Below are positions 15,452 to 46,668 of a stretch of 64,000 bases of DNA, one piece after another (position 1 is the first letter of the stretch; each line of letters opens with the position of its first letter). The position numbers and the translations under genes are program-made. The stretch spans positions 62,001-126,000 of the forward strand of contig JAGFZV010000003.1 of assembly GCA_017889545.1 (NCBI GenBank). The letters run 5' to 3'. The notes below the pieces were generated by a model, which saw only the letters and a program-made list of their open reading frames with translations, did not search any database and had not been told where the DNA came from. Source of the stretch: Bacillota bacterium (GTDB lineage Bacteria; Bacillota; Negativicutes; CTSoil-072).

Positions 15452-16750
15452 TTGGACGATCAAAGTTCAGCGCAGGAGACTCTAAGACAATATGTTAAGT
15501 TAGATTCGAAACTTTATGTCAGCACGCAAAATATTCGCAATATTCTGGACGCTGCGCCCGTTGCAATTGTTATTGTCAGATTGTCGAATAACCATATTAC
15601 TTATGTGAACCAAAAATGTTGTGAAGTCTTCCGAACTACACGGGAAGAGAGTATTGGTGACGTTTCCGCGAATTATTGGGCGGTACAGGCGGAACGGGAA
15701 GAATACATGCGTCAATTTGAAGCCCAAGGTTTCGCAAAAGATATTGAGGCGAGAATGAAGCGCCATGATGGGAAAGAGTTTCAGGCATTGGTTTCCTCAG
15801 CTATTGTGGACTATGCTGGGGAGAAAGCACGTCTTAGCGGCATTTTAGATATTCAAGAACGAAAAGATCTAGAGACAAATATCAGAGAGAGTGAAGAACG
15901 GTTCCGGACAATTGTGGAGAAGTTGCCTTTTCCGGTCGTAATCACACGCGCCAGCGATCATGTTGTTATGTATCTGAATCCGATTGCCGAGGCTGTTGGT
16001 CTTGTTTCCAAGGATGAGGCAGTCGGACGGCAGGCAAAATCTTTTGTTGTTATTCCTGCGGATAGGCGGCGATTGGCAGAAGATGTGCGGTTGTATGGCA
16101 ATGTCAATAATTTTGAAACTGTACTCACAAACCATCATGGCAGATTGATGCATGTACTGATTTCGGCCGTCCAGACTGTTTATGGCGGCGAAAAAGTATT
16201 GCTTTCGGGCATACAGGATATTACGTCCCTGAAACTGATGGAACAAGAGCTTCGCAAGTTGGCAACAACAGATCATCTGACCAATATTGCGAATCGACGG
16301 GCTTGGTTCGAACGTGCTGAACGGGAGTTTTTGCGATTCCAAAGATATGGACATCCGTGTTCCATATTGTGCTTGGATCTAGATCACTTCAAGCAAGTGA
16401 ATGACCAATACGGACATCAGGTGGGCGATGAAATTTTGATCGATTTTACAAACCGGAGTCAGCAATGCATTCGTGATCTTGATTATATGGGGCGGCTGGG
16501 CGGTGAAGAGTTTGCAGTTCTGCTGCCAGAAACCGATGTAGATCAGGCTGAAAAAGTATCCGCAAAAATTCAGGAAACGATCCGGAAAGCTTACGAGACC
16601 AAGCAAGGGATCTCATTACTATATACAGTCAGCATCGGAATTACTCAATTTTGCAAAGACGACGCAACGTTTGATCAGGCTTTGTCTAGAGCAGATAGGG
16701 CCTTATATGCCGCAAAGAATGCTGGCAGAAACCGATTTGTCACAGGGTAG
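15452..16750 (+). CDS. PAS-PAS-GGDEF diguanylate cyclase
   Basis: About 432 residues. Two PAS domains (roughly residues 25-135 and 150-275) precede a GGDEF domain that starts at LATTDHLTNIANRR. The active loop is GGEEF and the preceding RDLD five residues upstream is a complete RxxD inhibitory site, so c-di-GMP synthesis with feedback inhibition is expected. No transmembrane segment, hence a cytosolic sensor. The start is uncertain: TTG at 15452 has AGGTGGTG upstream; an upstream TTG at 15410 in frame adds 14 residues. It converges on the TpsA gene, which is under c-di-GMP riboswitch control. Confidence 0.92.
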   Translation: MDDQSSAQETLRQYVKLDSKLYVSTQNIRNILDAAPVAIVIVRLSNNHITYVNQKCCEVFRTTREESIGDVSANYWAVQAEREEYMRQFEAQGFAKDIEARMKRHDGKEFQALVSSAIVDYAGEKARLSGILDIQERKDLETNIRESEERFRTIVEKLPFPVVITRASDHVVMYLNPIAEAVGLVSKDEAVGRQAKSFVVIPADRRRLAEDVRLYGNVNNFETVLTNHHGRLMHVLISAVQTVYGGEKVLLSGIQDITSLKLMEQELRKLATTDHLTNIANRRAWFERAEREFLRFQRYGHPCSILCLDLDHFKQVNDQYGHQVGDEILIDFTNRSQQCIRDLDYMGRLGGEEFAVLLPETDVDQAEKVSAKIQETIRKAYETKQGISLLYTVSIGITQFCKDDATFDQALSRADRALYAAKNAGRNRFVTG

Positions 16751-16764
16751 CGGAAAATGCAGTC

Positions 16765-16806
16765 AAAAAGTGAAGCCCGACAAAATTCTGTCGGGCTTCA
16801 CTTTTT
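16765..16806. terminator. Bidirectional terminator between GGDEF gene and tpsA
   Basis: AAAAAGTGAAGCCCGACA pairs exactly with TGTCGGGCTTCACTTTTT. A-run on one side and T-run on the other make it functional for both converging genes. Confidence 0.95.
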
Positions 16807-16855
16807 AGGTAAGGTTGATTCGTTTCTTCTATCGTGTCTTTGTTTGTTACCAAAC

Positions 16856-19800
16856 CTATTTATAAACAACCAAAGTCCCATTGACATAATTAATCGTGTA
16901 GTTGTTGGAAGTGTAACCTGAAGGCATTATAGTATAACTGCCCGCCGGGGATCTTTTTGTAGCTGCGGTCGTAAAAACGATTTTACCATCCAACGAAGAC
17001 CAACTTTCGCCGTTAACAAAGCCGGCAGCCGTTGCACTAAACTTTGGTAGATTAGCACCTACTTTCTTCGTTGCGTCGTTTGCTTTTATAGTCAAAAGCG
17101 CTGTAGAGACATCTGCTGCAGTAAAGGCAAATGTATTTTGCAAGCTATAATTAGAGGCATCCTCGCCGCTGATGTTGATATCTGTGGCGTTTATTGTCTT
17201 ATTCGTCCCGGCGTTCTTATCAGCAAAAGTCGCTTTGCCGCTAACTGTAAGATTATCGCCGCTAATACGGTTATCGTTGTACGTTACAGTCGCTGCAGTA
17301 GTCCCGTCGTACACCTTATTATGCCCGCTTGCCGTTACCGTAATCGGACGCGGCGTAATCGTCAACGTTCCATCCGCGTAGGTGATAACGTAGTTGGACG
17401 CACTGCCATTGGTAAAGGCAACCCCGCTTGGTGTTAAGCTATAGCTGCCTACATTGCTCATAGTAACAGCCGTGCTTGTCAGGCTGGCATCGCTAAATGC
17501 ATCCGTGCCTACCAAACTTCCAGGCGCTACGCTGACTGGCCCGCTTGTGGGATTAGCATCCCCATATACTCTGCTGGCGTTCGCTGTTACCGTAATCGGC
17601 CGCGGCATGATCGTTAGCGTGCCGTCCGCATAGGTAATCATATAGTTGGCCGCGTTGCCGTTGGTAAAGGTAACCGCAGTCGGCGTCAGGCTATAGTCGC
17701 CTATATTGCTCGTGACAGCAGCCGTACTGGATAAGCTCGCACCGCCAATGGCGTCTGTGCCTACCAAACTCCCGGGCATTACACTGACTGTACCGCTTGT
17801 GGGGTTGGGATCCCCATACACTCTTTCGGCATTGTTCGCTTTGACGGCGATGTTCTTCGGTGTGATCGTCAGCGTGCCATCCGCGTAACTGATGTCATAA
17901 CCTTGTTGGTTAGAATATAACCCACTCGGAGCAATGCTGTAAATGCCGGCATTTACAGCATTCAGCGCCGTTCCCCCATAGACAACTGTTCCAAGAAGCG
18001 AACCTGTTGCACTGATGGAATAGGATACCCCTGCAATTCCGGAATAACCGGTTGTGCCGTCATAGGTTCGGCCAAAATCATTTGCCGTTACAGTCAGTGG
18101 AGTTAAAAATGACTTGAGAAGCGGATAGGTATATCCGTCATATATCCGCCACGTGTTGAGAAAATCCCAGTCGGTAAAATTGTCTTGATCCATCATCTGG
18201 GTTGTTGTTAAACCAATACCACCGGCACTATTCGTTTGGCCAGAAGTTGTTATATTCCAATAACTATTCGTGCTTCTGCCAAAATCAGCGCCAACCAAAC
18301 CGCCAACATCGATATTTCCACTCACTGCACCCGTGCTGTAACTGTTGCTGATGCTGCCGGAATTAATCCCCGCCAAGCCGCCAACACCAGAGTTCCCGCT
18401 CACTATACCCGTGCTGTAGCTGTTGTTGATAATTCCACCCGAAGCGCCACTGTCGTTGCCGTTATGGCCCGCCAAACCGCCAACATATTTGCTATTGACG
18501 CCTCCGGTTACATTACTACTGCTGTAACTGTTGCTGATAATGCCATAAGTATTCCCCCCCGCCAAACCGCCAACATGATTAATACCACTTACAGTTCCAC
18601 CGCTATAGCTATTGCTAATACTGCTGCTGACATGTTGGTCTCCAACCAAGCCGCCAACATACATGTACCCTTTTACGGTGCCTGTAATGTAGCTGTTGCT
18701 GATACTGCCATAATTAATTCCCACCAAACCAGCTGTATAATAGCTGCCGGTTACAGACACATTGGCAAGCCCGATGTTCTTAATACTTCCTGTAGACTTA
18801 CCAAATAAACCTATATAATTTTGTTTTGACCGGTTAATAAACAGGTTGCTGACGATATGATTGTCGCCATTAAAATCCCCGGAGAATGAGTTAATACTGC
18901 CAACCGGCACAAAGCCTGCGCCGCTACTCCATCCAGATGTTGCACTGGCATCAATGTCTTTACCAAGGGCGTAAGCGCCAGCCAGGTTAATGTTCATATC
19001 CTGCAACTGGTTTACATTATTAACCAACATGTAGGCCGTCAATGGTCCACCTATTACCTTCCCGGAATAATCAATGGGCGAAGTATAACTGGCGGGATTA
19101 TAGTAGATTTCCGCTTTACCGCTGCCATTCAAGACAACCGCGCCATCATCGCTGAAGTTTACCGTGCCGCTGCCAGTTCCAAGGCTGTCTGCCCGCAAAA
19201 CAATATTAGCATTATTGCCTGCCGTCAGTTGGTTGGTCAACGCAAGGTCGCCAACCGTGCTTACCTTTAATGTTCCGCCGGTCGTACCGGAGGCATCAAA
19301 AGTGCTGGTGGAAGCAAGTTGAATATTGCCGCCCTGCAAGGTGATCAGCCCGCCATTTTCACCCGTGTTTTTTCCAGCGGCAGAAAGCGCCCCGCTATGA
19401 ATTACAGTGCCTGTGTTGCCGCCATCCAAACGAATGACCCCGTTCGCATTACTGATACTGTTTGCTTGTATCATACCGCTATTATTGATCACTGTCCCTG
19501 CTAGTGCGTCAGCGGTCCGGGCTGTCATCAATACTCTGCCTCCGTTGGACTGAATGAGATTACCATTTAGGATACTGGCGCCTGTTGCAGCAGTGTTCAC
19601 CGCCAAATTGATCAACCCATCACCATTCATATCCAGAGTGACTGCATTTCCTGCCCCTACGGCTACGGTTCCTAGATTCGCAACAATCACGCCTTGGTTA
19701 TTGACTTGCTGCCCAAGTAAAACGACATAACCTCCATCAACTGCCTTGATGTTGCCTTGATTTATGACGGATCCTCCCGTGCCGTTAAAGATATAGTTTC

Positions 19801-20263
19801 CTGCCTGGAAGTCGCTATCGCTGATGTTCAAGGTAGATGCTACCAGACTTCCAACGTTAACCTGTGCACTGGGCGCAAAAAGTACGCCGTTTGGGTTGAT
19901 CAGAAAAATTTTCCCATTCGCAAGAAGTTGACCGTAAATTGTTGAAGCCTCGCTGCCTATAACCCGGTTAAGAGCAATAGATGACAATCCAGGTTGAATA
20001 AAAACAACCGTTTCGCCGGAAGCGATATTAAAATTTTGCCAATTAATTCCCATTTTGTTTGTAGTTTGAGTGACCGTCACTATATTGTCATTTTGGCTAA
20101 TGTTCCCAGAACCAGTCGTTACATCCCCACCGGACGGAGAAGCATAACCGCCTGATGTGGAGATAAACAGAAAAATTGCCGTGCAAAAGCAGTCTAAGAT
20201 TGTTCTTAGCACCTTACTTTTTATTCGGCGAATCCCATACGAAAAGTCGCCATCGCTTAGCAT
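16856..20263 (-). CDS. TpsA-type secreted exoprotein (filamentous haemagglutinin family)
   Basis: 1135 residues. Signal peptide ends near residue 41 (GGYA). The TPS secretion domain (about 44-270) contains NPNG at 123-126 and the typical IALNRV strand. The middle is a beta-helix region, then GLUG-type repeats (about 490-690; recurring GGLVG...ISNSYS). The C-terminal half carries YDG/MBG Ig-like repeats with recurrent NYVITYADGTLTITPRPITV patterns. The product would be an outer-surface adhesin exported by the adjacent TpsB. RBS AAGGGGG is 7 nt upstream, 14 bp after the tpsB stop. Shares the c-di-GMP riboswitch leader with tpsB. Confidence 0.93.
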   Translation of the reverse strand: MLSDGDFSYGIRRIKSKVLRTILDCFCTAIFLFISTSGGYASPSGGDVTTGSGNISQNDNIVTVTQTTNKMGINWQNFNIASGETVVFIQPGLSSIALNRVIGSEASTIYGQLLANGKIFLINPNGVLFAPSAQVNVGSLVASTLNISDSDFQAGNYIFNGTGGSVINQGNIKAVDGGYVVLLGQQVNNQGVIVANLGTVAVGAGNAVTLDMNGDGLINLAVNTAATGASILNGNLIQSNGGRVLMTARTADALAGTVINNSGMIQANSISNANGVIRLDGGNTGTVIHSGALSAAGKNTGENGGLITLQGGNIQLASTSTFDASGTTGGTLKVSTVGDLALTNQLTAGNNANIVLRADSLGTGSGTVNFSDDGAVVLNGSGKAEIYYNPASYTSPIDYSGKVIGGPLTAYMLVNNVNQLQDMNINLAGAYALGKDIDASATSGWSSGAGFVPVGSINSFSGDFNGDNHIVSNLFINRSKQNYIGLFGKSTGSIKNIGLANVSVTGSYYTAGLVGINYGSISNSYITGTVKGYMYVGGLVGDQHVSSSISNSYSGGTVSGINHVGGLAGGNTYGIISNSYSSSNVTGGVNSKYVGGLAGHNGNDSGASGGIINNSYSTGIVSGNSGVGGLAGINSGSISNSYSTGAVSGNIDVGGLVGADFGRSTNSYWNITTSGQTNSAGGIGLTTTQMMDQDNFTDWDFLNTWRIYDGYTYPLLKSFLTPLTVTANDFGRTYDGTTGYSGIAGVSYSISATGSLLGTVVYGGTALNAVNAGIYSIAPSGLYSNQQGYDISYADGTLTITPKNIAVKANNAERVYGDPNPTSGTVSVMPGSLVGTDAIGGASLSSTAAVTSNIGDYSLTPTAVTFTNGNAANYMITYADGTLTIMPRPITVTANASRVYGDANPTSGPVSVAPGSLVGTDAFSDASLTSTAVTMSNVGSYSLTPSGVAFTNGSASNYVITYADGTLTITPRPITVTASGHNKVYDGTTAATVTYNDNRISGDNLTVSGKATFADKNAGTNKTINATDINISGEDASNYSLQNTFAFTAADVSTALLTIKANDATKKVGANLPKFSATAAGFVNGESWSSLDGKIVFTTAATKRSPAGSYTIMPSGYTSNNYTINYVNGTLVVYK

Positions 20264-20277: not shown

Positions 20278-21951
20278 TTAAAATTTCCGGGTGCACTGCA
20301 GCCAGAAACGGCCGTTGCTGTCGGAGTCGGAATTATCATTGTCAGAATTCAACTTCCACGCATAGTCAAAACGTAATGAGTAGTCTTCATCCCAATTCCA
20401 AATAACCCCCATCCCTGCACCGCTGAGCGTGCGATGATTTGCAGCGTTATCCCACGGCTCCTTGTTGATGGTAATTCTGCCGGTATCGATGAATGCGGCG
20501 AGTTGAAAATTTGGTTTAGGCATATTCCAATGCAGTTCGCCGGTGAAAATATACCCATCATCCCCTGCTGCTTCGCCTTCCGGGTAAGCCCTTACCCCAG
20601 TAGCCCCACCGAGATATAATTTCTCCGACGAATCCAGGTTTTTACTGGCAAGTTGTCCGCTGAAAGATAGCTTGTAACTCAGACGTTCGTTTATTTGTTT
20701 CATCCCCAACAAACTGAGCGAGGTTTTATTGTACCAACCGGCCGATTTGGCGCTGGCCTGGTCAATAACAAGGTCAGCCGGTGTATTGATGTCGAGCCGG
20801 CCAGTCGATAACGCTAGGGCGAAGGCTGTTAACCCTCTGCCATCTTTGTCACGACGATCGCCATTTAGCTCAATCTTCCAGACTCTGCTCCGCTTATCCG
20901 AAAAAGTGTCCACAGCATCCAAGCGGTCTTCCAGTTTCTTGTCGTTAAAGCCGAGGCGTCCATAGATGTTCAGGCTGCGGGACCGGACAAAAGGATAAGT
21001 GCCAAAGACACTCGTTGTTTTTGCTTCCCCGTTGGCATTCAAGAAAGAAAAATCTTTACCCAAAAGATAGTGAGTGCGTTCATAACTCACACCCAGATTG
21101 CCGCCTCGTCTGCCCACAGGTACTAAGTACGACAAGCCGCGATTGTCCATGCCGGAGCCGGCATACGTTCCGCCAAGTGTCGCCTGATCGCCGATGCCGC
21201 TTGGGTTATTGAGATCGATGGCGAGTCCGAGACGGTTCTCGCCGGTAAACCAGTTTCCATGGTTGTCTACTGTCAAACTGCCGATCACCCGGCTTGCATC
21301 TATGACATCAACAATAAGGTCAGCCGTTCCGGGAGCCTCTCCCGGTGCAAGGGTGGCCTTGGCGCTCACGCCGCTGGCATCGTCCACTAGCAGCATAGCT
21401 CTTTCCAGACTATCTTTTCTAATGACATCGCCGCTGTGTATTTCGGACAGCAAGGCCCTGACACGTCCAATAGCAAGAGCGGAACTGTTACGGATCTGAA
21501 TATTGCCGTATTGTCCAAGCACTACAGCAATATTCACTGTATTGTCTTGAACGTCTTGCGCCGGTATATAGGCGGTTGCCACAAGGTAACCTTGACTGCG
21601 AAGATATCTTGTAATCTGCCAAGCTAACAATTCAAGGTCATTGAGGCTTAACTCTTTTTCAAGTCCATCTTGAATTTGTGCCAGAAGAGTCTCTTCGCTG
21701 AAAATGGTTTGCCCGGTAAACCGGATATGGTCAACCCGGATTTTCAGTCCTTGGTCCGCTTGTTTGGGCTCGGTTTGCTGTTGATGAATTGCCAGGTCGA
21801 TGGTAGATTGCGCAGGAGCGACAAGCTGTCGCTCCTGGATGCTTTTATCGGTTTGCCCGGCATCTGGCACAACTGCTGCCATGACAGGGATATGAATGAT
21901 GGTTGCTGCGGTGACGAGAGCAATAATCAAACGGCGCTTGCGTACTCGCAT
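20278..21951 (-). CDS. TpsB outer-membrane transporter (ShlB/FhaC/HecB family)
   Basis: 557 residues from the ATG at 21951 (AAAGGGG about 8 nt upstream); the frame continues 28 codons further back through the riboswitch terminator, which is not translated. It has an N-terminal signal sequence, a proline/glutamine-rich linker, a POTRA domain (about 70-150: IRFTGQTIFSEETLLAQI...) and a 16-strand-type barrel ending in phenylalanine (CTRKF) as outer-membrane barrels do. It exports the adjacent TpsA. Its presence indicates a diderm envelope. Confidence 0.93.
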   Translation of the reverse strand: MRVRKRRLIIALVTAATIIHIPVMAAVVPDAGQTDKSIQERQLVAPAQSTIDLAIHQQQTEPKQADQGLKIRVDHIRFTGQTIFSEETLLAQIQDGLEKELSLNDLELLAWQITRYLRSQGYLVATAYIPAQDVQDNTVNIAVVLGQYGNIQIRNSSALAIGRVRALLSEIHSGDVIRKDSLERAMLLVDDASGVSAKATLAPGEAPGTADLIVDVIDASRVIGSLTVDNHGNWFTGENRLGLAIDLNNPSGIGDQATLGGTYAGSGMDNRGLSYLVPVGRRGGNLGVSYERTHYLLGKDFSFLNANGEAKTTSVFGTYPFVRSRSLNIYGRLGFNDKKLEDRLDAVDTFSDKRSRVWKIELNGDRRDKDGRGLTAFALALSTGRLDINTPADLVIDQASAKSAGWYNKTSLSLLGMKQINERLSYKLSFSGQLASKNLDSSEKLYLGGATGVRAYPEGEAAGDDGYIFTGELHWNMPKPNFQLAAFIDTGRITINKEPWDNAANHRTLSGAGMGVIWNWDEDYSLRFDYAWKLNSDNDNSDSDSNGRFWLQCTRKF

Positions 21952-21979: not shown

Positions 21980-22031
21980 GAAACAAAAGACTGCCAGACC
22001 ATAACCGGATTAATCCGGTGCGGCCTGGCAG
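21980..22031 (-). terminator. Expression-platform terminator of tpsB riboswitch
   Basis: CTGCCAG (22031-22025) pairs with CTGGCAG (21997-21991), enclosing an inner CACCGGAT/ATCCGGT stem, and is followed by TCTTTTGTTT. Its 5' arm is part of the conserved 3' strand of the aptamer, so terminator and aptamer cannot form together. Confidence 0.85.
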
Positions 22032-22106
22032 TCATGAGCCCAGTATTTGGGCTTTTAGACCCGCGGCTTTGCGCCCCCGCCTTTTGGCGAGTTTGCCCAT
22101 ACTGTG
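22025..22106 (-). promoter_or_regulatory. c-di-GMP-I (GEMM-I) riboswitch controlling tpsBA
   Basis: Reading the minus strand, GGGCAAAC, a hairpin CTCGC/GCGGG, then GGCGCAAAGCC, GGGTCTAA, a third hairpin (AGCCC/GGGCT) and ATGACTGCCAGG occur in the exact order and spacing of GEMM-I aptamers. The first hairpin loop is CAAAAG rather than the usual GNRA, which may weaken tetraloop docking. Overlap with the terminator predicts an ON switch: ligand-bound aptamer prevents termination and permits tpsBA expression. Confidence 0.93.
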
Positions 22107-22302
22107 TTCTCTACAATCCCAGCAATATTGAATAACTGGTTATTGATTTCGACATTTATCAGTTAATTCCTGCATAAATTCACAAATTATTCAACTATTC
22201 TGATTTTCATGCCGCAAAATTTCAAATAACTTATTCCAGAAGAAATTGTCATATTGACAGATCTATACTTGTCGACATATCCAGCTTGCTTCCGGTTTCG
22301 TT

Positions 22303-23884: not shown

Positions 23885-23894
23885 CGTTTCTCCC

Positions 23895-35448: not shown

Positions 35449-35502
35449 CAACAATTCCCTTTTAAATTTGCGATATTTTGCAAATTTAAAAGGGAATTGT
35501 TG
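35449..35502. repeat. Perfect 23-bp inverted repeat between ligD and prs
   Basis: CAACAATTCCCTTTTAAATT (35449 onward) continues to GC at 35471 and is repeated exactly in reverse at 35480-35502 with an 8-nt loop. It lies between the ligD stop and prs start. Most likely a strong terminator for ligD read on the minus strand, or a miniature element. Confidence 0.8.
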
Positions 35503-35531: not shown

Positions 35532-37940
35532 TCAGCGGTGAAGCAGATTTTTTTTACTTCCTTTTCTCAGAATTTGCTTTGTTTTTCCATATCCTATCCA
35601 CGGATCTTCACTAGATTCCAATCTTTTTTTTGCCGTTTCGATAGTCCAATGCGCTCCCCCTGTTAAAGTGAGGAGTTCTGTCCACGAGCATGGCATAGAA
35701 ACACCCATACCAGGACGAGCACGGGCCGAAAAAGCGGCAACAGTAGTTGCCCCACGATTGTTGCGAATATAGTCAACGAATATTTTCCCCACTCGATTGC
35801 GAATTCCGCTTAAGGCTGCAAACCGATTTGGCATAACAGCGGCAAGGTGCTTCGATACCGCCTTAGAAAACTCTTTCACCGTTTCCCAATCATCTCGCAG
35901 TGTCAGAGGTACCACAATGTGCAAGCCATTTCCCCCACTGGTCTTGAGGAAGCTTTGCAACTCAAGCTCTTCTAATAATGTTCGAGTCAATTCCGCTGCT
36001 TCAAGCATCATAGACCATGGCAGCCCTTCTCCCGGATCAAGATCAAAGATCATCCGGTCCGGTTTCTCAATGTTCTGAGTCGTCACATTCCAAGTGTGGA
36101 ATTCCACAACATTCATCTGCGCTGCACCAATTAAGGCTTCCATGGTTTCTATCTCCATTAGCGCTGGGTCCCCTGGAGAAAGTTCCAATTTAAACTGATT
36201 TAGCCCCGGAATCCGCAAAGTATCGCCATGCTTTTGAAAAAATAACTCTCCTTCTATTCCGGTTGGTGCACGCAGGAAAGATACCGGCCGGTTCACAAGG
36301 TGAGGAAGCATCCGCTTTGCTGCAAGTTTGTAGTAGTTTACGAGATCCAATTTTCTGAGTCCGGTGCTCGAGTCAATGATTCTATTGGGATTGCTGATTT
36401 GCGGACTGGCAAATTCAGTTACAGGATCGTTCGTTTCAGTATATAAAGCTTTTCTGGGCTCTTCTCTAATAATCGCAGAAGCTGGCTTGTCGTCGCGCAA
36501 TCCTTGAAAAACAGCATTCCTTACTCTGCCTTCTTTGGTCCATTCGGCGAAGGACACCTCAGCAACAAGCTCCGGTATGATCCAATTTCCTATTGCTTCT
36601 TTGGGTTTTTCAAATAGCATAGTCTGATCAACAGCAAGCAGAGAAAGTTTTTTCTTAAGCAGGCTTGAAACCTTACCATCAAACCCGGTTCCTACGCGGC
36701 CTGCATAACGCAAATGACCTTCCTCATCATAAAATCCCAGCAGCAAAGCACCAATGCCCTCACTTTTTCCCCGCGCTTCCGTATATCCAACCACTACAAA
36801 CTCCTGCCGTTGAACACACTTGAGCTTTATCCAATTCGCAGACTTCCCGGATATATACGCTGAATCTTTACGTTTTCCAATCACTCCTTCCAAACCCAAG
36901 CGACATGCACTTTTCAAGATATCTTTGCCTCTTGCTGCAAAATCTTCGCTGAAACGAATCTGTTCCAAAGAAGTAGATTTAAGTAAAATATCCGAAAGCA
37001 GCGCGCGCCGATTGGCCAGACTTACTTCACGCAGATCAAAACCAGCATAGAACGGAATATCGAAGAGAAAGTAGTGAACATCATCGGTTTGTTTCTTCTC
37101 AAACGCGTTCTGTAAAGCGCCGAAATCAGGCATACCGTTCTCCCCAAACATGACAATTTCTCCGTCAAGCCATCCAGAAGCAAGGTTCAACTTTTTCATA
37201 GACACTACAAGTTTTTTCAACTTGGCAGTCCAGTCATGTCCATTGCGAGTAAATAATGCCACATCGCCTTTGTCAATCCGCGCCAAAATACGGTACCCAT
37301 CAAACTTAATTTCATAGAGCCAGTCATTATCCATTGGAATGCGGTCAACCAGCGTTGCCAGTTGAGGAGTAAGCAATGGCGGAATTAGTCCTGGCTTTGC
37401 CCCTATCGGAATGGCAATTTCATCCCTCTCAGTTTTGAACCAGGATTGCTCATCACGCTCTTTGATAAGCAGCCAGGCATCTTGACGTTCGTCTGGTTTC
37501 CCGCGCATTCTTACAAGAGTCCAAGCCCCACGCAATTTCTCACCATAAAGTTGAAATTTCAGAAGCCCAGAATCCAATCCTTTCCTTGGATCTCCAATCG
37601 GCTCCCACGTTCCGCGATCCCAGATGATTACAGTACCTGCGCCATACTGCTTGGGAGGGATCTCCCCTTCAAATTCAGCATATGATAAAGGGTGATCCTC
37701 AACGTGTACAGCCAAGCGTTTTTGCATCGGGTCGAGACTAGGACCTTTCGGGATTGCCCAACTTTTCAACACACCATCAAGTTCCAAACGAAAATCATAA
37801 TGTAGATTTCGCGCAGCATGTTTCTGGACGACGAAAGACAGAGGAGACGCTTTCGTCAGAACATCCTCTGCCGGCTCCGGAGTGAGCGCGAAATCTCTCT
37901 TTTTTTTGTAGTCCAAAAGCGGATCATTGATCGTTTTCAT
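35532..37940 (-). CDS. ligD: ATP-dependent DNA ligase LigD (PE-LIG-POL)
   Basis: 802 residues, three domains. 3'-phosphoesterase (1-180): HAARNLHYDFRLE with His41, His47, Asp49, Arg51 and His79/His83. Ligase (about 190-490): nucleotidyl Lys212 in IKFDGYR, plus DGEIVMF and GLEGVIGKR. Primase-polymerase (about 510-790): DLDPGEGL and SGGNGLHIVVPL. It acts in non-homologous end-joining with Ku, encoded 11 bp upstream. Domain order matches the Pseudomonas enzyme. Confidence 0.95.
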   Translation of the reverse strand: MKTINDPLLDYKKKRDFALTPEPAEDVLTKASPLSFVVQKHAARNLHYDFRLELDGVLKSWAIPKGPSLDPMQKRLAVHVEDHPLSYAEFEGEIPPKQYGAGTVIIWDRGTWEPIGDPRKGLDSGLLKFQLYGEKLRGAWTLVRMRGKPDERQDAWLLIKERDEQSWFKTERDEIAIPIGAKPGLIPPLLTPQLATLVDRIPMDNDWLYEIKFDGYRILARIDKGDVALFTRNGHDWTAKLKKLVVSMKKLNLASGWLDGEIVMFGENGMPDFGALQNAFEKKQTDDVHYFLFDIPFYAGFDLREVSLANRRALLSDILLKSTSLEQIRFSEDFAARGKDILKSACRLGLEGVIGKRKDSAYISGKSANWIKLKCVQRQEFVVVGYTEARGKSEGIGALLLGFYDEEGHLRYAGRVGTGFDGKVSSLLKKKLSLLAVDQTMLFEKPKEAIGNWIIPELVAEVSFAEWTKEGRVRNAVFQGLRDDKPASAIIREEPRKALYTETNDPVTEFASPQISNPNRIIDSSTGLRKLDLVNYYKLAAKRMLPHLVNRPVSFLRAPTGIEGELFFQKHGDTLRIPGLNQFKLELSPGDPALMEIETMEALIGAAQMNVVEFHTWNVTTQNIEKPDRMIFDLDPGEGLPWSMMLEAAELTRTLLEELELQSFLKTSGGNGLHIVVPLTLRDDWETVKEFSKAVSKHLAAVMPNRFAALSGIRNRVGKIFVDYIRNNRGATTVAAFSARARPGMGVSMPCSWTELLTLTGGAHWTIETAKKRLESSEDPWIGYGKTKQILRKGSKKNLLHR

Positions 37941-37951: not shown

Positions 37952-38860
37952 CTACCCCTTCTTCTGCTTGTTCTTAGATATTTTCAAAAGCCCGCTGTCA
38001 GACATCGTATTCATCGGATCGTTTTTTGCTGATATTTTTCTGGTGCGCTTATCGGTCCCACGTCGCAAGCTTCTTTGCAGCAATTCCGTTAAATCGATAA
38101 TATCGGCAGTCGTGGAGATTTTTATCTCATCTTCTGACTGAATGATAGTTGCCGTTTGACCGGCTTTGACCTTTTTCTCAACTAACTCCATTACTTTCGC
38201 AGTGAATGAATCCTGAAACTTTTCAGGCTCCCAAGGTTCTGACATAGAGTCAACCAGTTGTATCGCCATCGAAAGTTCGCGCTCAGTCAACCCTGCAGAC
38301 GCCATTCCTTCAGGGGGAAGTTTCAATTCCTTCCAAGAACGGATTTGGGCTGCCCATCGGAGCAGAATTAAGACAAGCATCGGTCCATACGGCATAAGAA
38401 CAGCTAAATGCTGCTTTGTATGTATCACGACTCGTGCAATCCCTACACGCTGTGTCTTCAGCAATGCTTCTCGCAGCAGGCCGTAAGACTTCGCTCCTCT
38501 GTCTGCCGGAGCAAGGTAGTACGGACGTTCAAAATATAGGAGAGGAATTTCATTCGCGGACACAAAAGACTCGATTTCTATCGTCTGAGTATTCTTGGCA
38601 AGAGCGTGTCTAACCTCATCATCGGTCAAAACAACATACTGTTCTCCATTATAAGAAATTCCTTTGACAATATTTTCTTTCCCGATTTCCTGACCCGTCC
38701 TCTTGTTGATGCGTTTGTACCCAACAGGATCTCTGGTGCGCTTATCAAGCCACTCAAAATCCAAGCCGGACTCATTTGCGGCAGAATACAGCGCCACCGG
38801 AATATTCACTAGTCCAAAGCTGATTGCTCCATTCCAAATAGCCCGCGTATTTGAAGACAT
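37952..38860 (-). CDS. ku: Ku DNA-end-binding protein
   Basis: 302 residues from ATG at 38860 (AGGAG 8 nt upstream). Core matches bacterial Ku: IWNGAISFGLVNIPVALYSA at the start, KGISYNGEQYVVLTDDE, and YYLAPADRGAKSYGLLREAL. Binds double-strand ends as a homodimer and recruits LigD. It leads a two-gene end-joining operon. Confidence 0.95.
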   Translation of the reverse strand: MSSNTRAIWNGAISFGLVNIPVALYSAANESGLDFEWLDKRTRDPVGYKRINKRTGQEIGKENIVKGISYNGEQYVVLTDDEVRHALAKNTQTIEIESFVSANEIPLLYFERPYYLAPADRGAKSYGLLREALLKTQRVGIARVVIHTKQHLAVLMPYGPMLVLILLRWAAQIRSWKELKLPPEGMASAGLTERELSMAIQLVDSMSEPWEPEKFQDSFTAKVMELVEKKVKAGQTATIIQSEDEIKISTTADIIDLTELLQRSLRRGTDKRTRKISAKNDPMNTMSDSGLLKISKNKQKKG

Positions 38861-38960: not shown

Positions 38961-40331
38961 TCAATCATTCAACTTGTTCATAATCACATCAGCGGCTACG
39001 GCAACGTTATCAATTGGGCTGCTAAAAGGCGGTGAGTATGACAAATCCATTCCAGAGAGGTCATCGATCGTCCCACCAAGTGTCAATGTTGCGGCGATAA
39101 CATCGATCCGTTTTGCAATTTCCCCTTCACCGAATGCCTGAGCTCCAAGTACTTTACGAGTTTTAGCATCCGCAATCAGCTTCAATGTTATAATTTTTGC
39201 TTCCGGCATATAATGAGGCCTGTCATAATCCCTAATTGTCACTGTTATATAATTATACCCATTCGTTTTCGCCTCTTGCTCATTTAGGCCAACTTTGCCA
39301 ACAGAAAGATCCATCACCTTTACAATCACTGTGTTGAGAACTCCGCGAAAAGCCACACGATAACCACAAATATTTTCGCCAATAATCCGACCATGTTTAT
39401 TGGCTATTGAACCTAAAGGAGAATACACTTTTTTGCCGGTAATGATACTTGTTGTTTCCACACAATCTCCTCCGGCATAAATGTCGGGGTCGCTGGTTTG
39501 CATATACTGATTGACAACAATTGCTCCGGTTGCGCCAATATCCAACCCAGCAGTACGAGCCAGTTCAACATTAGGATTGGTTCCTATTGTCAAAACAACC
39601 AAATCCGCCGGAATGGTTTGCTTATCTGTTCGAACTTGGTTTACGACAGTATCTCCGATAAATTTCTGTACGTTTTCAAATATTAAAATCGCAATTCCCT
39701 TTTCACGAAAATATTCCGTCACTTGTTTAGCAACTTCTTCGTCTAAAAAGGCAGTAAATACCCTATCCTTCCTGACAATTACGGTTACATTGAGCCCCCG
39801 CATCTTTAACGCTGCCGCCATTTCCATTCCAACCAAACCAGCACCAATAATCACACCATTCTTAAATATCCCCTCTTCCAATCCCTGACGAATGATTATC
39901 GCATCGTGAGGATGCCAAAATTGATGAATATTGCCTAGTTCTATTCCTGGCAAAGGAGGTTTTACAGGCGAAGCTCCTGTTGCAATTACCAATTTGTCAT
40001 AGGGCAGTAAACTTTCCTCTTCCGTTATAAGATTCTTCACAGTTACCATTTTGTTATTACGATCAATTTTGGTTGCCAACGTCCTTGTTAACACATCAAT
40101 ATGTTTTGTATTAAAGTATGCAGCATCACGGATTTCGCCATCAGCGGTCATCATAAGTTTGTTGATATGTTCGATTTCTCCTGACACATAATAAGGTAGA
40201 CCGCACGCACCGTAAGAGATTATGTCGCTTTTGTCGATAACTGTGATCTGCGCTTTGGAATCACATCGTCGGATTTTGGAGGCCGCTTTCAGGCCGGTCG
40301 CATCTGCTCCAATAATAACAATTTTTTTCAC
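38961..40331 (-). CDS. CoA-disulfide reductase/NADH oxidase-like flavoprotein
   Basis: 456 residues. N-terminal FAD fold (IVIIGADATGLKAA) followed by the active-site cysteine Cys43 in SYGACGLPYYVSG, identical in place to CoA-disulfide reductases and Npsr-type NADH-dependent persulfide reductases. NAD site VIIGAGLVGMEMAAAL and GGDCVE FAD contact follow. The start is GTG at 40331. An upstream c-di-GMP-I riboswitch with terminator controls it. Specific substrate (CoA disulfide, polysulfide, O2) is undetermined. Confidence 0.9.
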   Translation of the reverse strand: MKKIVIIGADATGLKAASKIRRCDSKAQITVIDKSDIISYGACGLPYYVSGEIEHINKLMMTADGEIRDAAYFNTKHIDVLTRTLATKIDRNNKMVTVKNLITEEESLLPYDKLVIATGASPVKPPLPGIELGNIHQFWHPHDAIIIRQGLEEGIFKNGVIIGAGLVGMEMAAALKMRGLNVTVIVRKDRVFTAFLDEEVAKQVTEYFREKGIAILIFENVQKFIGDTVVNQVRTDKQTIPADLVVLTIGTNPNVELARTAGLDIGATGAIVVNQYMQTSDPDIYAGGDCVETTSIITGKKVYSPLGSIANKHGRIIGENICGYRVAFRGVLNTVIVKVMDLSVGKVGLNEQEAKTNGYNYITVTIRDYDRPHYMPEAKIITLKLIADAKTRKVLGAQAFGEGEIAKRIDVIAATLTLGGTIDDLSGMDLSYSPPFSSPIDNVAVAADVIMNKLND

Positions 40332-40375: not shown

Positions 40376-40422
40376 ACAAAAAACTGCCAGAACACAACCG
40401 GATGTCCGGTGCGGCCTGGCAG
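40376..40422 (-). terminator. Expression-platform terminator of the CoADR riboswitch
   Basis: CTGCCAG (40422-40416) pairs with CTGGCAG (40390-40384), inner stem ACCGGA/TCCGGT, and a run of six T follows. The 5' arm belongs to the aptamer's 3' conserved strand. Confidence 0.92.
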
Positions 40423-40495
40423 TCATGAGCCCGTCTCCGTGGCTTTTAGACCCACGGCTTTGCGCCCTTACCTTTCAGTAAGTTTGCCAATACTG
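40416..40495 (-). promoter_or_regulatory. c-di-GMP-I riboswitch upstream of CoADR gene
   Basis: Minus strand: TTGGCAAAC, hairpin CTTAC-TGAAAG-GTAAG (GAAA tetraloop), GGGCGCAAAGCC, GTGGGTCTAA, a hairpin around AGCCACGGAGACGGGCT, then ATGACTGCCAGG. Same arrangement as the tpsB copy. Overlap with the terminator predicts that c-di-GMP turns the downstream gene on. Confidence 0.93.
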
Positions 40496-40692
40496 TTTTT
40501 AACTAAAGAATATTTCAAACGTTTCAATCATATTATACTCTATTGAAATAGTATTTCCAATGTTTAGATGGATGATTTTGAATTTTGCGATATTTGTTTT
40601 GGGGAAATATGTTATGTATCTACAGAGTGTCCTTCCACTGTAACAATTTTCCAGAAGCGTCACCATGCCTTGTTCCCCAACTCGTTTGGGCA

Positions 40693-41986: not shown

Positions 41987-42117
41987 CTCTAAAACACCTC
42001 TTTAGTTTTTTCCAATACTTTCAAATTCTTGCCTTCATTATATGCGGCAAAATTATAATTGTCAATAAATGTTATAAGTAGAAATGCAAGTAATTTTTAC
42101 AAACACTAGAAACTACA

Positions 42118-42352: not shown

Positions 42353-42761
42353 ATACCTACCCTTTAGCACCATTTACGAACGCTCACAAACCATTGAATT
42401 TACTAGCTTCATCATAATCTTCCATTCACGATCATTAACCTTTATTCATCGTTCATAAGGCACGATAAGGCCATAAATAAGGCCATAATTTTATCCCGTC
42501 AAGAGGTCTAATAATAACCTGTTTTTTTATTTTAAGGACAATCAAATTTGAATTCCCAGCTTCCTAATACTAATTCCATATCTCCCATAAACCTTCTCGA
42601 ACAGATCTCCGTCTAACTGCTATGCCCTATATAATGGAAATTCAACATTTCAGCTTCCGCATAAGGTTTGTTTATGATGAACGCCTATACGCGGAGACAT
42701 CCCATACCCCGATTATTTTACTTTTCTTCCCTAATAATAGCTGGTTCTGCTTTTGATCAGC
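42353..42761. other. Gap next to tRNA fragment
   Basis: About 400 bp with no supportable gene on either strand. Contains a 12-bp tandem repeat at 42465-42488 and a partial copy just before it, described separately. Otherwise A+T-rich sequence without clear structure. Confidence 0.5.
42465..42488. repeat. Tandem 12-bp repeats beside tRNA fragment
   Basis: ATAAGGCCATAA occurs twice head-to-tail (42465-42476, 42477-42488), with a partial third copy ATAAGGCACG just before. Short direct repeats about 110 bp from an attachment core are typical of integrase arm-type sites. Confidence 0.6.
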
Positions 42762-43019
42762 TCAAAACACGTTCTTTACTTGCATAGTAATTATGCTATC
42801 CAATAGTGCTTTTACGCGTGCATGGACTTCAACAGCCCTCTTACTACCATATAAGCATCTTCCTAGTTGTTGATAATATACCTGAAATTTTCTCATATCT
42901 AATAAGCCATAACCTACTTCCGAATGACCCTGCTGTTCATTGTACCTTTCTAATTCTCTTTCCACTAAATCCACTAAATCACTATTGGGAAGCATATTCA
43001 AATTAACATTCATCTTCAT
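42762..43019 (-). CDS. Small hypothetical protein, 85 aa
   Basis: Helical protein (SDLVDLVERELERYNEQQGH... RAVEVHARVKALLDSI). GGAG precedes the ATG. No family recognised. It is the only credible gene between the tRNA fragment and the IS110 element and could belong to the mobile segment. Confidence 0.55.
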   Translation of the reverse strand: MKMNVNLNMLPNSDLVDLVERELERYNEQQGHSEVGYGLLDMRKFQVYYQQLGRCLYGSKRAVEVHARVKALLDSIITMQVKNVF

Positions 43020-43475
43020 CTACTCCATTCATCTCCTATACTTTTTTTCCAAGTCTCAGTAGTGCTCTTTCACGAGATCCCGGATTTTCGACTGTTTTCG
43101 AAGTAATGTCCGCATATGTTATCCATAGACATTTATTATCTACATTGCGATTCGCTAATTGAGTTGCCTAAACACCATATAATGCTTATAATATAAATCA
43201 GAAGGACTTCTTCAGTGAATCTGTTGCTAACGCACTTAGACAACTGACCCCCTTTGGGAGCCTTCTTTTTATAGGTAAAATCATATATACTTTTATTGAG
43301 AAGTATCCCTTAGTCCAATGTGCTGCCAATCATTTTGATTGGACAGTTGTGGATTGGTTGGGAACTTCTCTTTTTTCATCAAGATTTCAAGATCAAGCCC
43401 AGATAAAATCATTGTGATAACCTCTCCCGAGATACCACTTGCGATTGTTTTTATAAATAAGCGGCATGCTTTCAT
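43020..43475. other. Gap before IS110 element
   Basis: About 450 bp without a convincing gene; a 60-codon minus-strand frame (43293-43475) has no ribosome site and overlaps an equally weak plus frame. A small palindrome AGAAGGACTTCT occurs near 43200. Nothing else stands out. Confidence 0.4.
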
Positions 43476-43708
43476 ATTTAATGCACCGTATAAAAAGAAT
43501 TTTCCACTAAAAAAAGAATATAATATTAAAACTTCTTGTGGAAAACAACAATATGTATCGACTTTTGGAAATAAAGGGCCTACTGCTATTAACGTGGAAA
43601 TTGTCGCATTTTAACCATAATTTATCACATTGAAAAGATTTGACTTGTTATGGTAACCTGTGGATAGGATAGTAATAACACTATTTTAAGATATAGGAGT
43701 GTGTTACC
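43476..43708 (+). other. IS110 left-end non-coding region (possible bridge RNA locus)
   Basis: About 230 bp of non-coding A+T-rich DNA between the last weak frame and the transposase ATG. In IS110-group elements the region upstream of the transposase encodes the structured bridge/seek RNA. Element ends were not determined, and I did not identify the two guide loops. Confidence 0.35.
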
Positions 43709-45070
43709 ATGAAGGATAACAATTCGTTCCTACCTATAGTACAAATGAATATTGTTAAAACGATTAATCAACCCCAAACTCATTTTTTTTACGTGGGGAT
43801 CGATATCGGTTATAAATTTCATGAAGCATCTTGTATTATTGACAAAGCATTTAGTGACATGCAACAAAGTTGGAAAAGAAGCAATACTATTAGATTTAAT
43901 GCAGACGGTGAAGGAATTTCACATTTGCTCCAATTCTTTTCCTCCGCTTCTTCCAATCCGTTGGATTTTTGTATTCTTTTGGAACCAACCGGTGGTTATT
44001 ACGGTTTTGCATTAATAGAGGTTCTAAAACAACAAGGGTACGTTGTGCATTTTGTAGATAACAAGGCTGTGAAAGATTTCCGCGAACGTAATCTTGGCAT
44101 ACGGGAAAAAAGTGATAAAATTGATTGCAAGGTCCTGGCATATATGGGATTTCAAAAGACATTGACTCCTTCAATATATGGCATTAGGTTGATGAACAGC
44201 ACAGCGCCTATGCAAATTCTTTTTAAAGCGCAAGCCGCAGAACGCTGGTCGATGCAAAAACAGTTAACGAGGCGAAAAAACCAACTACAACAAATTCTTT
44301 CTGTTACCCACCCTGACCTTAAAAGTATATTTTCTAACGGAACGGCCACTCGTACAGTACGTAAATTGATAACCAAATATCCAACAATAGAATTGATGTC
44401 TCTTCAATCTGAAGAAACGCTATATAAAGACTTCATTAGTTTTGGAGCAAAATCTATTGCCAAAAAACGAAGCAAAGAGTTAAAAACACTGTTAAGCCAT
44501 GCACTAACTATCGACACATCATTTTTGCTTAACCGACAGCAACTACTTGTTGAGGATATAGATCGTATGGAAGGTTTCATTGAAAAAATGGACGCTGAAA
44601 TAAAAAAGCTTGTAGACAATCACCCATATAAAGAAATACTGTTTTCTTTCCCAGTCATGAGCTATACATGGGCTTGCACGCTAATAGGAGCAATTGGCGA
44701 TATCAATCGTTTTACAAATTATAAACAGTTTAAAAAATACATGGGATTTGTTGCCGAGAATAGACAGTCAGGTATATCAGTTCAAAGCACACATCTTTCT
44801 TTTCAAGGAGTTCGTGAAACCCGTCGGGTTCTGTTTCAGATGTGCTTTACAATGATGGGGCCGCATAATGACGAAACTCCGTTCAGAACACATTACAACC
44901 GCTTGTTGCAAAGAAGTATGCCTAAGATGAAGGCGTTGGGACATGTTTGTGGAAAGTTGGCACAAGTCTTATATGGGTGCCTTAAAAATAACAAACCTTA
45001 TGACCCAACAATTCACTCTCTTGCTATGGGGATTACTGCTGATCGCACTGGTAATACGAACGTGCATTGA
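43709..45070 (+). mobile_element. IS110-family transposase
   Basis: 453 residues with the IS110 architecture. N-terminal DEDD nuclease fold: Asp32 in VGIDIG, Glu92 in LLEPTGG, Asp136 and Asp139 in EKSDKIDCKVLA. A helical linker is followed by a C-terminal Transposase_20 domain with IGAIGDINRFTNYKQFKKYMG and the RQSG serine region. TAGGAG precedes the ATG at about 9 nt. The frame is intact, so the element may be active. No terminal inverted repeats expected for this family. It lies between mobile-DNA debris and the polysaccharide cluster. Confidence 0.93.
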
Positions 45071-45380
45071 TCAAAAAAAGCTCGGCTACATTGTGGTCGA
45101 GCGGTAGATGCAAAACTATACAGTGCTTTAATCAAACACAACAGCATCTTACCCGCCTGCTCTCTCTTCAATCACAGAACACTCTTCTGTTGATTGGTAG
45201 CTTTCTGGCACACTGCAGTCTCACTAGCTACCATAGACTCTTTCTTCTATTGTGCCTTGCGCCGTACGCGTCCTTCTACTTCATTATGCACACCGAATTC
45301 AGCGCAAAACCCATTGGTTCCATCAACATTGGGGAATTTGTCCTGGTATCCGGCCCAATCTTAAACTTATTAAATCAGTC
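45071..45380. other. Gap between IS110 transposase and VanZ gene
   Basis: About 310 bp. Begins with AAGCTCGG...CGAGC, a small interrupted stem likely in the IS right end. A 111-codon plus-strand frame (45067-45402) runs through it antisense to VanZ but lacks a ribosome site and recognisable content, so it is not called. Part of the gap must be the IS110 right end. Confidence 0.4.
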
Positions 45381-45857
45381 TCATTGTTTTTTTATTCTTT
45401 GAACTAACCAACATATTCCTATGCCTACTGCCGCTCCGCTTGCATCAATGATCACATCAGAAATTTGTCCGCTTCGACCGGGAACAAAAATCTGATGAAA
45501 CTCATCAGTAACAGAGTACAGCAGACAAAACAAGAACGTAAGAGTATACAGCTTACATTCACTCGTTACTCCCATTTTGGCCGCGGCACAGACCAGCAGT
45601 AGCCCCAGGACAAAATACAAGCCACTATGGGCCAACTTTCTTACCAGGTTATTAAAGTGCTTCACGATACCAGCCAACTTCTCCGCATCTATGTCCGGGG
45701 CAACCACTTTCGCCACGGTTACGACAATCAATTCCGTTACCCGCAGGCTAGATTGATTAGACGTCTCGGCCGGCTGAGCGGATAGGAAAAAGATCAGGAT
45801 GGCCCAGAAGAAAACAAGCATCCATGCCATGATCGTATTTCGGCTCACATTTTTCAT
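45381..45857 (-). CDS. VanZ-family membrane protein
   Basis: 158 residues with four hydrophobic segments and the VanZ signature: FLSAQP, RKLAHSGLYFVLG, DEFHQIFVPGRSGQISD. ATG at 45857 has AGGGTG upstream. VanZ-like proteins often accompany exopolysaccharide genes; function is not settled. Forms the 3' end of the riboswitch-led pair with the sugar transferase (51-bp gap). Confidence 0.9.
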   Translation of the reverse strand: MKNVSRNTIMAWMLVFFWAILIFFLSAQPAETSNQSSLRVTELIVVTVAKVVAPDIDAEKLAGIVKHFNNLVRKLAHSGLYFVLGLLLVCAAAKMGVTSECKLYTLTFLFCLLYSVTDEFHQIFVPGRSGQISDVIIDASGAAVGIGICWLVQRIKKQ

Positions 45858-45908
45858 TTGTGTCACCCTACTATTCTTTCAACAGCTTCATTACGATTGA
45901 CGACACAC

Positions 45909-46484
45909 CTAAGCCCGGTTTTCCGTTTTCACAATGCCGGTACCTTCTGAGACGCTAAACACAGTCATATAAATAATTTTCAAATCCAGCCAGAAAGTTT
46001 GCTTTTTAAGATAGTATAAGTCCAATTTCACTTTTTCCGGCAGAGAAATATCATCCCGCCCGTTTACCTGCGCCCAGCCGCTGAGACCGGGCCGGATGGC
46101 TGCTACTCCCATTTTATTGCGCCTTTGCCGCAATTCCGTTTGGTTGTATAGAGCCGGCCGCGGTCCAATAATCGACATATCGCCTTTAATAATATTCAAT
46201 AATTGCGGTAACTCATCAATGCTGTATTTGCGTAAATAATAACCAACCTTGGTAATATAGCTTTGGCTGTTTGTCAGTTTATCCGTCGCCACATTCGGGG
46301 TGCCGACCACCATCGTGCGGAATTTGTACATGAAAAATTCCGTATCATTGATCCCCACCCGCCTTTGCACAAATAGGCTCGGACCAGGGGAATCCATTTT
46401 TATAAGTATAACCACCACGATCAACAACGGACTTAATACCAGCAGAGCCGCCGATGAGCACAAGATATCAAATAACCTTTTCAA
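45909..46484 (-). CDS. Undecaprenyl-phosphate sugar-1-phosphate transferase (priming)
   Basis: 191 residues of the short bacterial sugar-transferase (WcaJ C-terminal/PglC) class. One N-terminal re-entrant membrane helix (AALLVLSPLLIVVVILIK) is followed by the catalytic pair in KFRTM, DELPQLLNIIKGDMSIIGPRP and GLSGWAQVNGRD. It starts polymer assembly by loading a sugar phosphate on undecaprenyl phosphate. TTG start with AAGGGGG upstream. It is separated from the rest of the cluster by a c-di-GMP riboswitch leader. Confidence 0.93.
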   Translation of the reverse strand: MKRLFDILCSSAALLVLSPLLIVVVILIKMDSPGPSLFVQRRVGINDTEFFMYKFRTMVVGTPNVATDKLTNSQSYITKVGYYLRKYSIDELPQLLNIIKGDMSIIGPRPALYNQTELRQRRNKMGVAAIRPGLSGWAQVNGRDDISLPEKVKLDLYYLKKQTFWLDLKIIYMTVFSVSEGTGIVKTENRA

Positions 46485-46520
46485 CGCCTGATAACCCCCT
46501 TTTTAATAATAATTTATCCC

Positions 46521-46549
46521 AAAATAAAAACCAGGTTATTCACCTGGCA
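46521..46549 (-). terminator. Leader terminator before sugar transferase
   Basis: CCAGGT/ACCTGG, 5-nt loop, followed by TTTTTATTTT on the minus strand. It lies 36 bp upstream of the gene and 40 bp past the aptamer: the expected expression platform. Confidence 0.9.
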
Positions 46550-46554
46550 ACGCA

Positions 46555-46578
46555 TCAACATCAACATCAACATCAACA
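46555..46578. repeat. Hexanucleotide repeat (TCAACA)4 inside riboswitch leader
   Basis: Four exact head-to-tail copies of TCAACA between aptamer and terminator. On the minus strand they read (TGTTGA)n, and in one frame encode alternating Met-Leu. Copy-number change would alter aptamer-terminator spacing. Confidence 0.85.
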
Positions 46579-46587
46579 TAAAGAAGA

Positions 46588-46668
46588 TGTGCAACTTGGC
46601 AGTCATAGGCATAACGCCTTTAGACCCATAGCTTTGCGCCTCTATCTTTCAATAGATTTGCCAAAGAA
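46588..46668 (-). promoter_or_regulatory. c-di-GMP-I riboswitch upstream of sugar transferase-VanZ
   Basis: Minus strand: TTTGGCAAAT, hairpin CTAT-TGAAAG-ATAG (GAAA tetraloop), AGGCGCAAAGC, ATGGGTCTAA, hairpin AGGCGTTATGCCT, then ATGACTGCCAAGTTGC. Third member of the same family in this window. Here the terminator does not overlap the aptamer; TTGCCA of the terminator arm could instead pair with TGGCAA of the aptamer 5' strand, so switching direction may be reversed. Confidence 0.92.

Follow-up and report, generated by a model that had tools for sequence, protein, structure and literature searches.

A duplicated family of c-di-GMP-I riboswitch leaders in a bacterium of the Negativicutes and its predicted link to Ku-LigD end joining

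Results

The window analysed here, a stretch of 64,000 nucleotides from a Bacillota bacterium of the class Negativicutes (positions 62001-126000 of the contig here called C31, in a 3.27-Mb draft genome of 50 contigs that is 96% complete), contains three leaders with an aptamer of the class-I cyclic di-GMP (c-di-GMP) riboswitch. These leaders precede (i) the tpsBA genes for two-partner secretion (TPS) of an adhesin, (ii) genes for a CoA-disulfide-reductase-like (CoADR-like) flavoprotein, Ku and LigD, and (iii) genes for a priming sugar transferase and a VanZ-like protein. Searching the whole window on both strands with cmscan gave exactly three matches to RF01051 (c-di-GMP-I; gathering score 35 bits), all on the minus strand, and no other family reached its gathering score. 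The matches lie at 22016-22107 upstream of tpsBA (59.0 bits, E 5.4e-9), at 40407-40498 upstream of the CoADR-like gene (64.4 bits, E 2.7e-10) and at 46587-46672 upstream of the sugar transferase gene (72.6 bits, E 2.6e-12). All three have G, A and C at positions 20, 47 and 92, which we take to be the ligand contacts in Vc2 numbering. Docking of a GNRA tetraloop with its receptor is a feature of c-di-GMP-I riboswitches; in the covariance alignment the tetraloop is GAAA in two of the aptamers and AAAA in that of tpsBA. Downstream, each aptamer has a terminator-like hairpin with a T run. These results bear out the original prediction, which had placed three minus-strand aptamers of one family within about 10 nt of these positions and had noted terminators, and they support its proposal of a second messenger shared by the three leaders. 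We infer that the three leaders are probably c-di-GMP-I riboswitches that work by transcription termination.

The tpsBA locus has the domain set of a two-partner secretion system by Pfam. TpsB (20278..21951, minus strand) combines POTRA_2 with a ShlB barrel, its frame opening at 22035 within the aptamer and an ATG with a ribosome-binding-site (RBS)-like stretch lying at 21951. TpsA (16856..20263, minus strand) has a TPS secretion domain together with MBG, YDG and GLUG repeats.

The second aptamer is followed by the gene for the CoADR-like flavoprotein (38961..40331, minus strand; 456 aa), which was assigned by Pfam and NCBIfam and stays below the equivalog cut-offs (TIGR03385, 419.9 vs 578.8 bits; NF007123, 405.5 vs 458). 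On the same strand follow Ku (37952..38860; frame open from 38893, ATG with an RBS-like stretch at 38860; Pfam, TIGR02772) and LigD with phosphoesterase, ligase and primase-polymerase domains (35532..37940; Pfam and NCBIfam). Both exceed their NCBIfam cut-offs, and the Ku-LigD set of end-joining domains is complete. The CoADR-like stop codon lies 100 nt from the Ku ATG, and 11 nt separate Ku from LigD; for the 100-nt gap the scan gave neither a terminator-like site nor a promoter-like site of sigma-70 type on the minus strand. Judged from this layout, the CoADR-like gene appears to head an operon with Ku and LigD. The redox enzyme of the original prediction does stand behind the aptamer, and the Ku and LigD genes of its apparent operon had gone unmentioned.

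The priming sugar transferase (Bac_transf; 45909..46484, minus strand; Pfam and NCBIfam) and the VanZ-like protein (45381..45866, minus strand; Pfam) are encoded close to the end of a cluster for exopolysaccharide, the head of which, at C31:137090, lies outside the window. The leader at the head, before CpsB and Wzz genes, is a paralog of the leader at 46587 (74% identical), and riboswitches are thus found near both ends of the cluster. In the window leader, the terminator hairpin that we consider (46531..46547, minus strand; 40 nt past the aptamer) was selected by eye in place of the top hairpin of the scan.

A gene for a PAS-PAS-GGDEF diguanylate cyclase (15452..16750, plus strand; frame open from 15410) converges on tpsA. 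Pfam and motif reading confirmed this gene as first described, with a GGEEF motif, RDLD five residues upstream as an RxxD I-site and the D of GHxxGD in place, and by these motifs the cyclase looks catalytically intact. Genome-wide searches of proteins gave 19 GGDEF, 6 EAL (PF00563), 8 HD_5 (PF13487) and 1 PilZ (PF07238) matches, of which the latter three families have none on the contig of the window. Hence, the window does lack EAL, HD-GYP and PilZ genes as had been noted, but they are found elsewhere in the genome. Class-I c-di-GMP riboswitches number 25 over cut-off and class-II riboswitches 3, with 1 more below it; the total of 28 stands against the single match to PilZ, the one protein receptor that was searched. 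In a comparison set of 60 genomes, in which the other 59 are related at class level only and none is a close relative, a count under stricter filters gave class-I matches in 39, with 25 as the highest number, followed by 17 and 16.

The 25 class-I leaders fall into 12 of ON type, 11 of OFF type and 2 without an assigned terminator (C29:123881 and C23:135701, in which the scan gave weak hairpins of -9.6 and -6.8 kcal/mol). These counts were made after the terminators of five leaders (C1:261076, C29:55354, C31:224048, C31:137090 and C31:108587, the last being the sugar-transferase leader) had been set by eye over the top hairpin of the scan; the 12 ON-type leaders are independent of these choices. 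In the ON-type leaders, the 3' strand of P2/P3 of the aptamer doubles as the terminator's 5' arm, which begins 16-17 nt before the aptamer end. The terminator pairs that lie inside the aptamer have a probability of 0.88-1.00 in the free RNA, of 0.00-0.08 when the aptamer is forced and of 0.88-1.00 when the 5' strand of P2/P3 is kept open (mean over all terminator pairs in the last state, 0.86-0.98). For the same three states the values are 1.00, 0.01 and 1.00 in the tpsBA leader (terminator at 21988..22033, minus strand, from the hairpin scan, folding and family pair counts) and 0.97, 0.00 and 0.97 in the CoADR-like leader (terminator at 40381..40424, minus strand, from the scan and folding). 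In both, the expression platform is coupled to the aptamer through a terminator that excludes it, because the two structures share the P2/P3 strand. If the ligand stabilizes the aptamer, leaders with a shared strand can only be ON; the ON direction is a prediction that is firm by architecture, and it applies to the tpsBA and CoADR-like leaders.

Ten ON leaders are 68-91% identical to one another across the aptamer and the next 30 nt. The tpsBA and CoADR-like leaders are copies of one cassette, comprising the aptamer, the terminator and partly the promoter region, of which ten intact copies exist in the genome; five OFF leaders are 70-82% identical to one another. In the ON family of ten, pairing is kept in 92.7% of the aptamer cells and 97.2% of the terminator cells, both-sided changes occur at 4 of 22 aptamer pairs and 2 of 18 terminator pairs, and the covariation score is reached by 2 (aptamer) and 5 (terminator) of 500 shuffles. 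The family has kept both alternative folds, with modest covariation.

Upstream of the aptamers, a 22-nt box common to other ON cassettes, TATCGCAAAATTCAAAATCATC, lies at 40571..40592 (minus strand) before the CoADR-like leader, and was recognized by comparing leaders and by a genome pattern search. At up to three mismatches it has 11 places in the genome compared with 0 for the reversed pattern, the pattern having been written after the leaders had been seen: the box precedes four ON leaders, that of CoADR-Ku-LigD included, and one gene without an RF01051 match, and five further places have three mismatches. At C6:40758 (L126), what looks by eye like a decayed ON cassette has kept the box and the terminator tail and lost the aptamer; the gene behind it is rubrerythrin-like, also by eye. 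Before the CoADR-like leader there is in addition a sigma-70-type promoter-like site, TTGGAA-17-TATAAT (40532..40560, minus strand; 10/12 match), of a kind found 14 times in the region, against 14.8 times in shuffled sequence. The tpsBA leader is preceded by a putative sigma-H-like promoter, GCAGGAATT-N11-GTCGAAA (22147..22173, minus strand), with 0 mismatches to a pattern written after the site had been seen. The consensus, which we take to be RnAGGAwww-N11/12-RnnGAATww, has GAAT where this site has GAAA. The pattern, written once the leaders were known, has 85 sites in the genome vs 4 for its reverse; 4 of the 25 class-I leaders have such a site no more than 150 nt upstream, and the genome has a sigH gene.

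Two of the ON-type leaders have TPS adhesin genes or operons behind them, one of these being tpsBA, and others have genes for a YadA-like adhesin, two PglD-type sugar acetyltransferases, a DUF202 protein, an AsmA-like protein (below Pfam cut-offs), glgC-like-glgB-like genes (over the Pfam cut-off, below NCBIfam equivalogs) and the CoADR-like-Ku-LigD operon; the proteins behind C8:13169 and C27:5713 have no family over cut-off, and no clear gene belongs to C8:15984. Behind the OFF-type leaders lie flgBC-fliF, two MCP-domain genes, a dynamin-like gene, the CpsB and priming sugar transferase genes, a GGDEF-HD-GYP gene and a pair encoding periplasmic-binding and GGDEF-EAL proteins. The leader in C13 precedes a gene for a 91-aa protein and then a GGDEF gene, C31:224048 precedes a gene for a paralogous 91-aa protein, and C23:297003 has no gene of its own; the paralogous 91-aa proteins, each behind an OFF-family leader, are without a Pfam match (L026:210-485, L033:5662-5937).

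At C23:297003-297447 (L037, L128), the OFF-family leader is followed by a short frame remnant, which by eye resembles the frame at C13 and at C31:224048, and about 270 nt on by an ON-family leader with the DUF202 gene. A tandem OFF-ON band-pass switch at 297003/297356 was rejected in view of this remnant and of promoter-like elements between the leaders; support for OFF is nil here.

For the OFF-type leaders, in which the terminator begins 3-40 nt past the aptamer and can coexist with it (probability 0.82-1.00 with the aptamer forced), the direction was tested by folding the RNA only as far as the 5' arm of the terminator and comparing the pairing of this arm with the aptamer to that in 200 shuffles. 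In 8 of the 11 leaders, pairing exceeded the shuffled mean; C13 and C26 were matched by 0/200 shuffles, four others by 15-31/200, the sugar-transferase leader (0.72) by 14/200 and C31:137090 (0.77) by 10/200. With P2/P3 open the terminator vanishes in C13 (0.00) and C1:261076 (0.01). The OFF direction of these 11 leaders is a tentative prediction.

Among the other features, a paralog of the CoADR-like protein, 75% identical, is encoded at C46:444-1808 (L144) in a longer frame (593 aa) and without an RF01051 match; the window protein lacks its C-terminal extension, which by eye is rhodanese-like. The paralog lies behind an inverted repeat of a C run and a G run that adjoins a TATAAAAT stretch. 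A 50-bp palindrome with 21-bp arms, read by eye, lies after ligD and before a gene for ribose-phosphate diphosphokinase (35451..35500), and an IS110-type transposase gene is found between tRNA-Ala and vanZ (43709-45070, plus strand).

Discussion

Combining the genome census with the leader architectures and the gene layout, we suggest that this genome harbors a large, duplicated c-di-GMP riboswitch regulon of 25 class-I leaders with copies of an ON cassette, and that it has brought end joining under the control of c-di-GMP; we put the probability of this reading at roughly 0.68. Without c-di-GMP, the more stable terminator would form in the tpsBA and CoADR-like leaders and RNA polymerase would stop; with c-di-GMP, the aptamer would be held and the operon read. 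One copy of the ON cassette lies before the apparent CoADR-like-Ku-LigD operon, and end joining would be expected to rise in the sessile state, in which c-di-GMP is high. The stronger proposal that c-di-GMP directly licenses non-homologous end joining (NHEJ), through a cassette that also serves adhesins and glycogen-type genes, and that the sessile state in that way turns on template-free repair, is one to which we give slightly less than even odds. The aptamers, the terminators, the gene layout and the paralogy are observed; we infer ligand binding, the direction of switching, read-through into Ku-LigD and the physiological role of the leaders.

Several observations weigh against this reading. 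The tetraloop of the tpsBA aptamer is without its G. In nearly all leaders the free-energy folds contain the terminator when no ligand is present, and because of this the effect of the ligand is read from architecture. The top hairpin of the scan enters the aptamer by 11, 9 and 13 nt in C1:261076, C31:224048 and C31:137090, respectively, and for C18, C14 and C23:297003 the shuffles show, on average, more arm pairing than the truncated RNA. In the ON family, 1 of 10 members forms the outermost pair of P2, and shuffles often reach the counts of pairs with both-sided changes (104 and 63 of 500 for aptamer and terminator) and of further pair types (440 and 254 of 500). Finally, the link between riboswitch and Ku is known from a single genome, and Ku-LigD could have a promoter of its own in the 100-nt gap.

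This last point leads to the rather unlikely alternative that the riboswitch controls the CoADR-like gene while Ku and LigD are transcribed mainly from their own promoter, leaving end joining outside c-di-GMP control. It would fit the CoADR-Ku gap, which exceeds that between Ku and LigD, and the signs that Ku-LigD was acquired separately. Ku and LigD share 57-58% identity with those of L095, a contig labelled Syntrophomonas sp., whereas Ku of 20 class relatives is 33-40% identical; LigD pieces flank Ku on both sides in 18 of these 20 relatives; and tblastn found no CoADR-like gene in 32 Ku loci (the 20 relatives and 12 named ones). Because of the closeness to L095, the different LigD layout and the missing CoADR-like neighbor, the sequences suggest that Ku-LigD was acquired from outside the class and later captured by the cassette. 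On the other hand, the genes share one strand with tight spacing downstream, and the gap has no listed terminator-like site and, on the minus strand, no listed promoter-like site of sigma-70 type. Ku occurs in 25 of the 60 genomes, own included, and 20 of the 24 Ku-bearing relatives contributed one Ku locus each (L089 and L090 spanning only 4.1 and 6.5 kb); these 20 loci had 0 Rfam matches. No c-di-GMP riboswitch was found before Ku in the 12 named loci, where the sequence of L095 upstream of Ku is only about 1 kb long and some others are limited by their contigs. In L095, a c-di-GMP-I-GGC variant (RF03167; 5187-5271) lies downstream of ligD before a gene that is VanW-like by eye. No report tying a c-di-GMP riboswitch to Ku-LigD was found by title or abstract start among the open-licence PMC articles listed, which is weak evidence of absence. 

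That the window leaders sense cyclic GMP-AMP (cGAMP) as GEMM-Ib riboswitches is extremely unlikely and was ruled out as a reading: although five other leaders have A at position 20 (C8:28160, C42:3032, C8:13169, C8:15984 and C27:5713) and one has C (C8:15412), making 6 of the 25 class-I leaders non-G20, the A20 mark of cGAMP sensing is absent from all three window aptamers. In cGAMP synthases (Hypr), S replaces D of GHxxGD in the GGDEF domain, and this signature occurs in 0 of the 19 GGDEF matches, which all have D. Moreover, PMC6456294 reports that changing A20 to G converts a riboswitch for cGAMP to one for c-di-GMP. It is very unlikely that the window's own cyclase specifically feeds the three leaders, as the original prediction of a window-scale circuit implied. 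The cyclase lies near the leaders and looks catalytically intact, but it is one GGDEF match among 19, the leaders are 3 among 25, c-di-GMP diffuses, the cyclase is encoded on the strand opposite to all three targets, and no link between it and the leaders was found. Because the census shows 25 class-I and 3 class-II riboswitches and 19 GGDEF matches, the local circuit was dropped as a unit, a decision in line with the EAL, HD_5 and PilZ counts; the window's one cyclase and three riboswitches are a sample of a genome-wide system. The predicted link of adhesin, redox enzyme and exopolysaccharide holds in that they share one messenger, but their outputs seem to be opposed, two being ON by architecture and the sugar-transferase leader being predicted OFF. 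In that leader, as long as the 3' arm has not been made, the 5' arm of the terminator can pair with the GGCAA segment of the aptamer, and binding of c-di-GMP would free the terminator. We regard this OFF call as weak. The truncated-RNA test is the one result that favors it, and 14/200 shuffles match; in the full-length fold, which shows no antiterminator, Vienna gives the terminator in all three states (0.99 free, 1.00 with the aptamer forced, 0.97 with P2/P3 open), and the top scan hairpin of the paralog C31:137090 reaches into the aptamer. These points speak for an ON switch or no switch, which we nevertheless find somewhat unlikely, as the 5' arm GCGUUGCCAGG is kept in the paralog despite a diverged linker and pairs with the aptamer in the truncated RNA of both exopolysaccharide leaders.

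The ON and OFF target sets fit a switch between sessile and motile states, except for the exopolysaccharide leaders, the predicted OFF control of which runs counter to the usual c-di-GMP rule; their OFF calls are among the weak ones. Bacterial end joining is mainly known as a function of stationary phase or spores, and a c-di-GMP riboswitch before Ku-LigD would tie the choice of repair to the sessile state. The riboswitch class itself is already known; what is new is the target (end joining), the number of leaders, the two polarities and the copying of cassettes. The genome shows how a global regulon can be built by copying one riboswitch class in the form of finished ON-type and OFF-type cassettes, and the part most worth the attention of specialists is the c-di-GMP control of Ku-LigD that is predicted from the layout.

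Class I seems to supply both directions here, ON and OFF. According to PMC6200980, 16 c-di-GMP riboswitches are predicted in Clostridioides difficile 630, 12 of class I and 4 of class II. Class I is reported there as OFF, flgB included, with one exception in the first transcript analysis, and class II as ON. Both genomes have many class-I together with class-II switches, a class-I switch before the flgB operon and adhesins as targets; they differ in that the present genome has 25 class-I (12 ON-type and 11 OFF-type by architecture) and 3 class-II riboswitches, and in that its adhesins stand behind class-I ON-type leaders and its targets include end-joining and glycogen-type genes. In Geobacter sulfurreducens, PMC6456294 describes 17 GEMM-I riboswitches in one genome that activate cell-surface genes; the GEMM-Ib members there have A20 and sense cGAMP made by a Hypr GGDEF protein, in contrast to G20 in the window and the absent Hypr signature. 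The tandem c-di-GMP-I riboswitches Bc3-5 of Bacillus thuringiensis (PMC4759541) and a survey of tandems (PMC9481103) likewise provide several copies of similar structure per genome; those tandems precede one gene, whereas the copies here are dispersed before different operons. As in other bacterial Ku-LigD systems for NHEJ, Ku and a three-domain LigD exceed their NCBIfam cut-offs. Unlike in 18 of the 20 class relatives, with LigD pieces on both sides of Ku, LigD is here a single fused protein, and unlike in other Ku-LigD systems the genes stand together with one for a flavoprotein and with a c-di-GMP leader.

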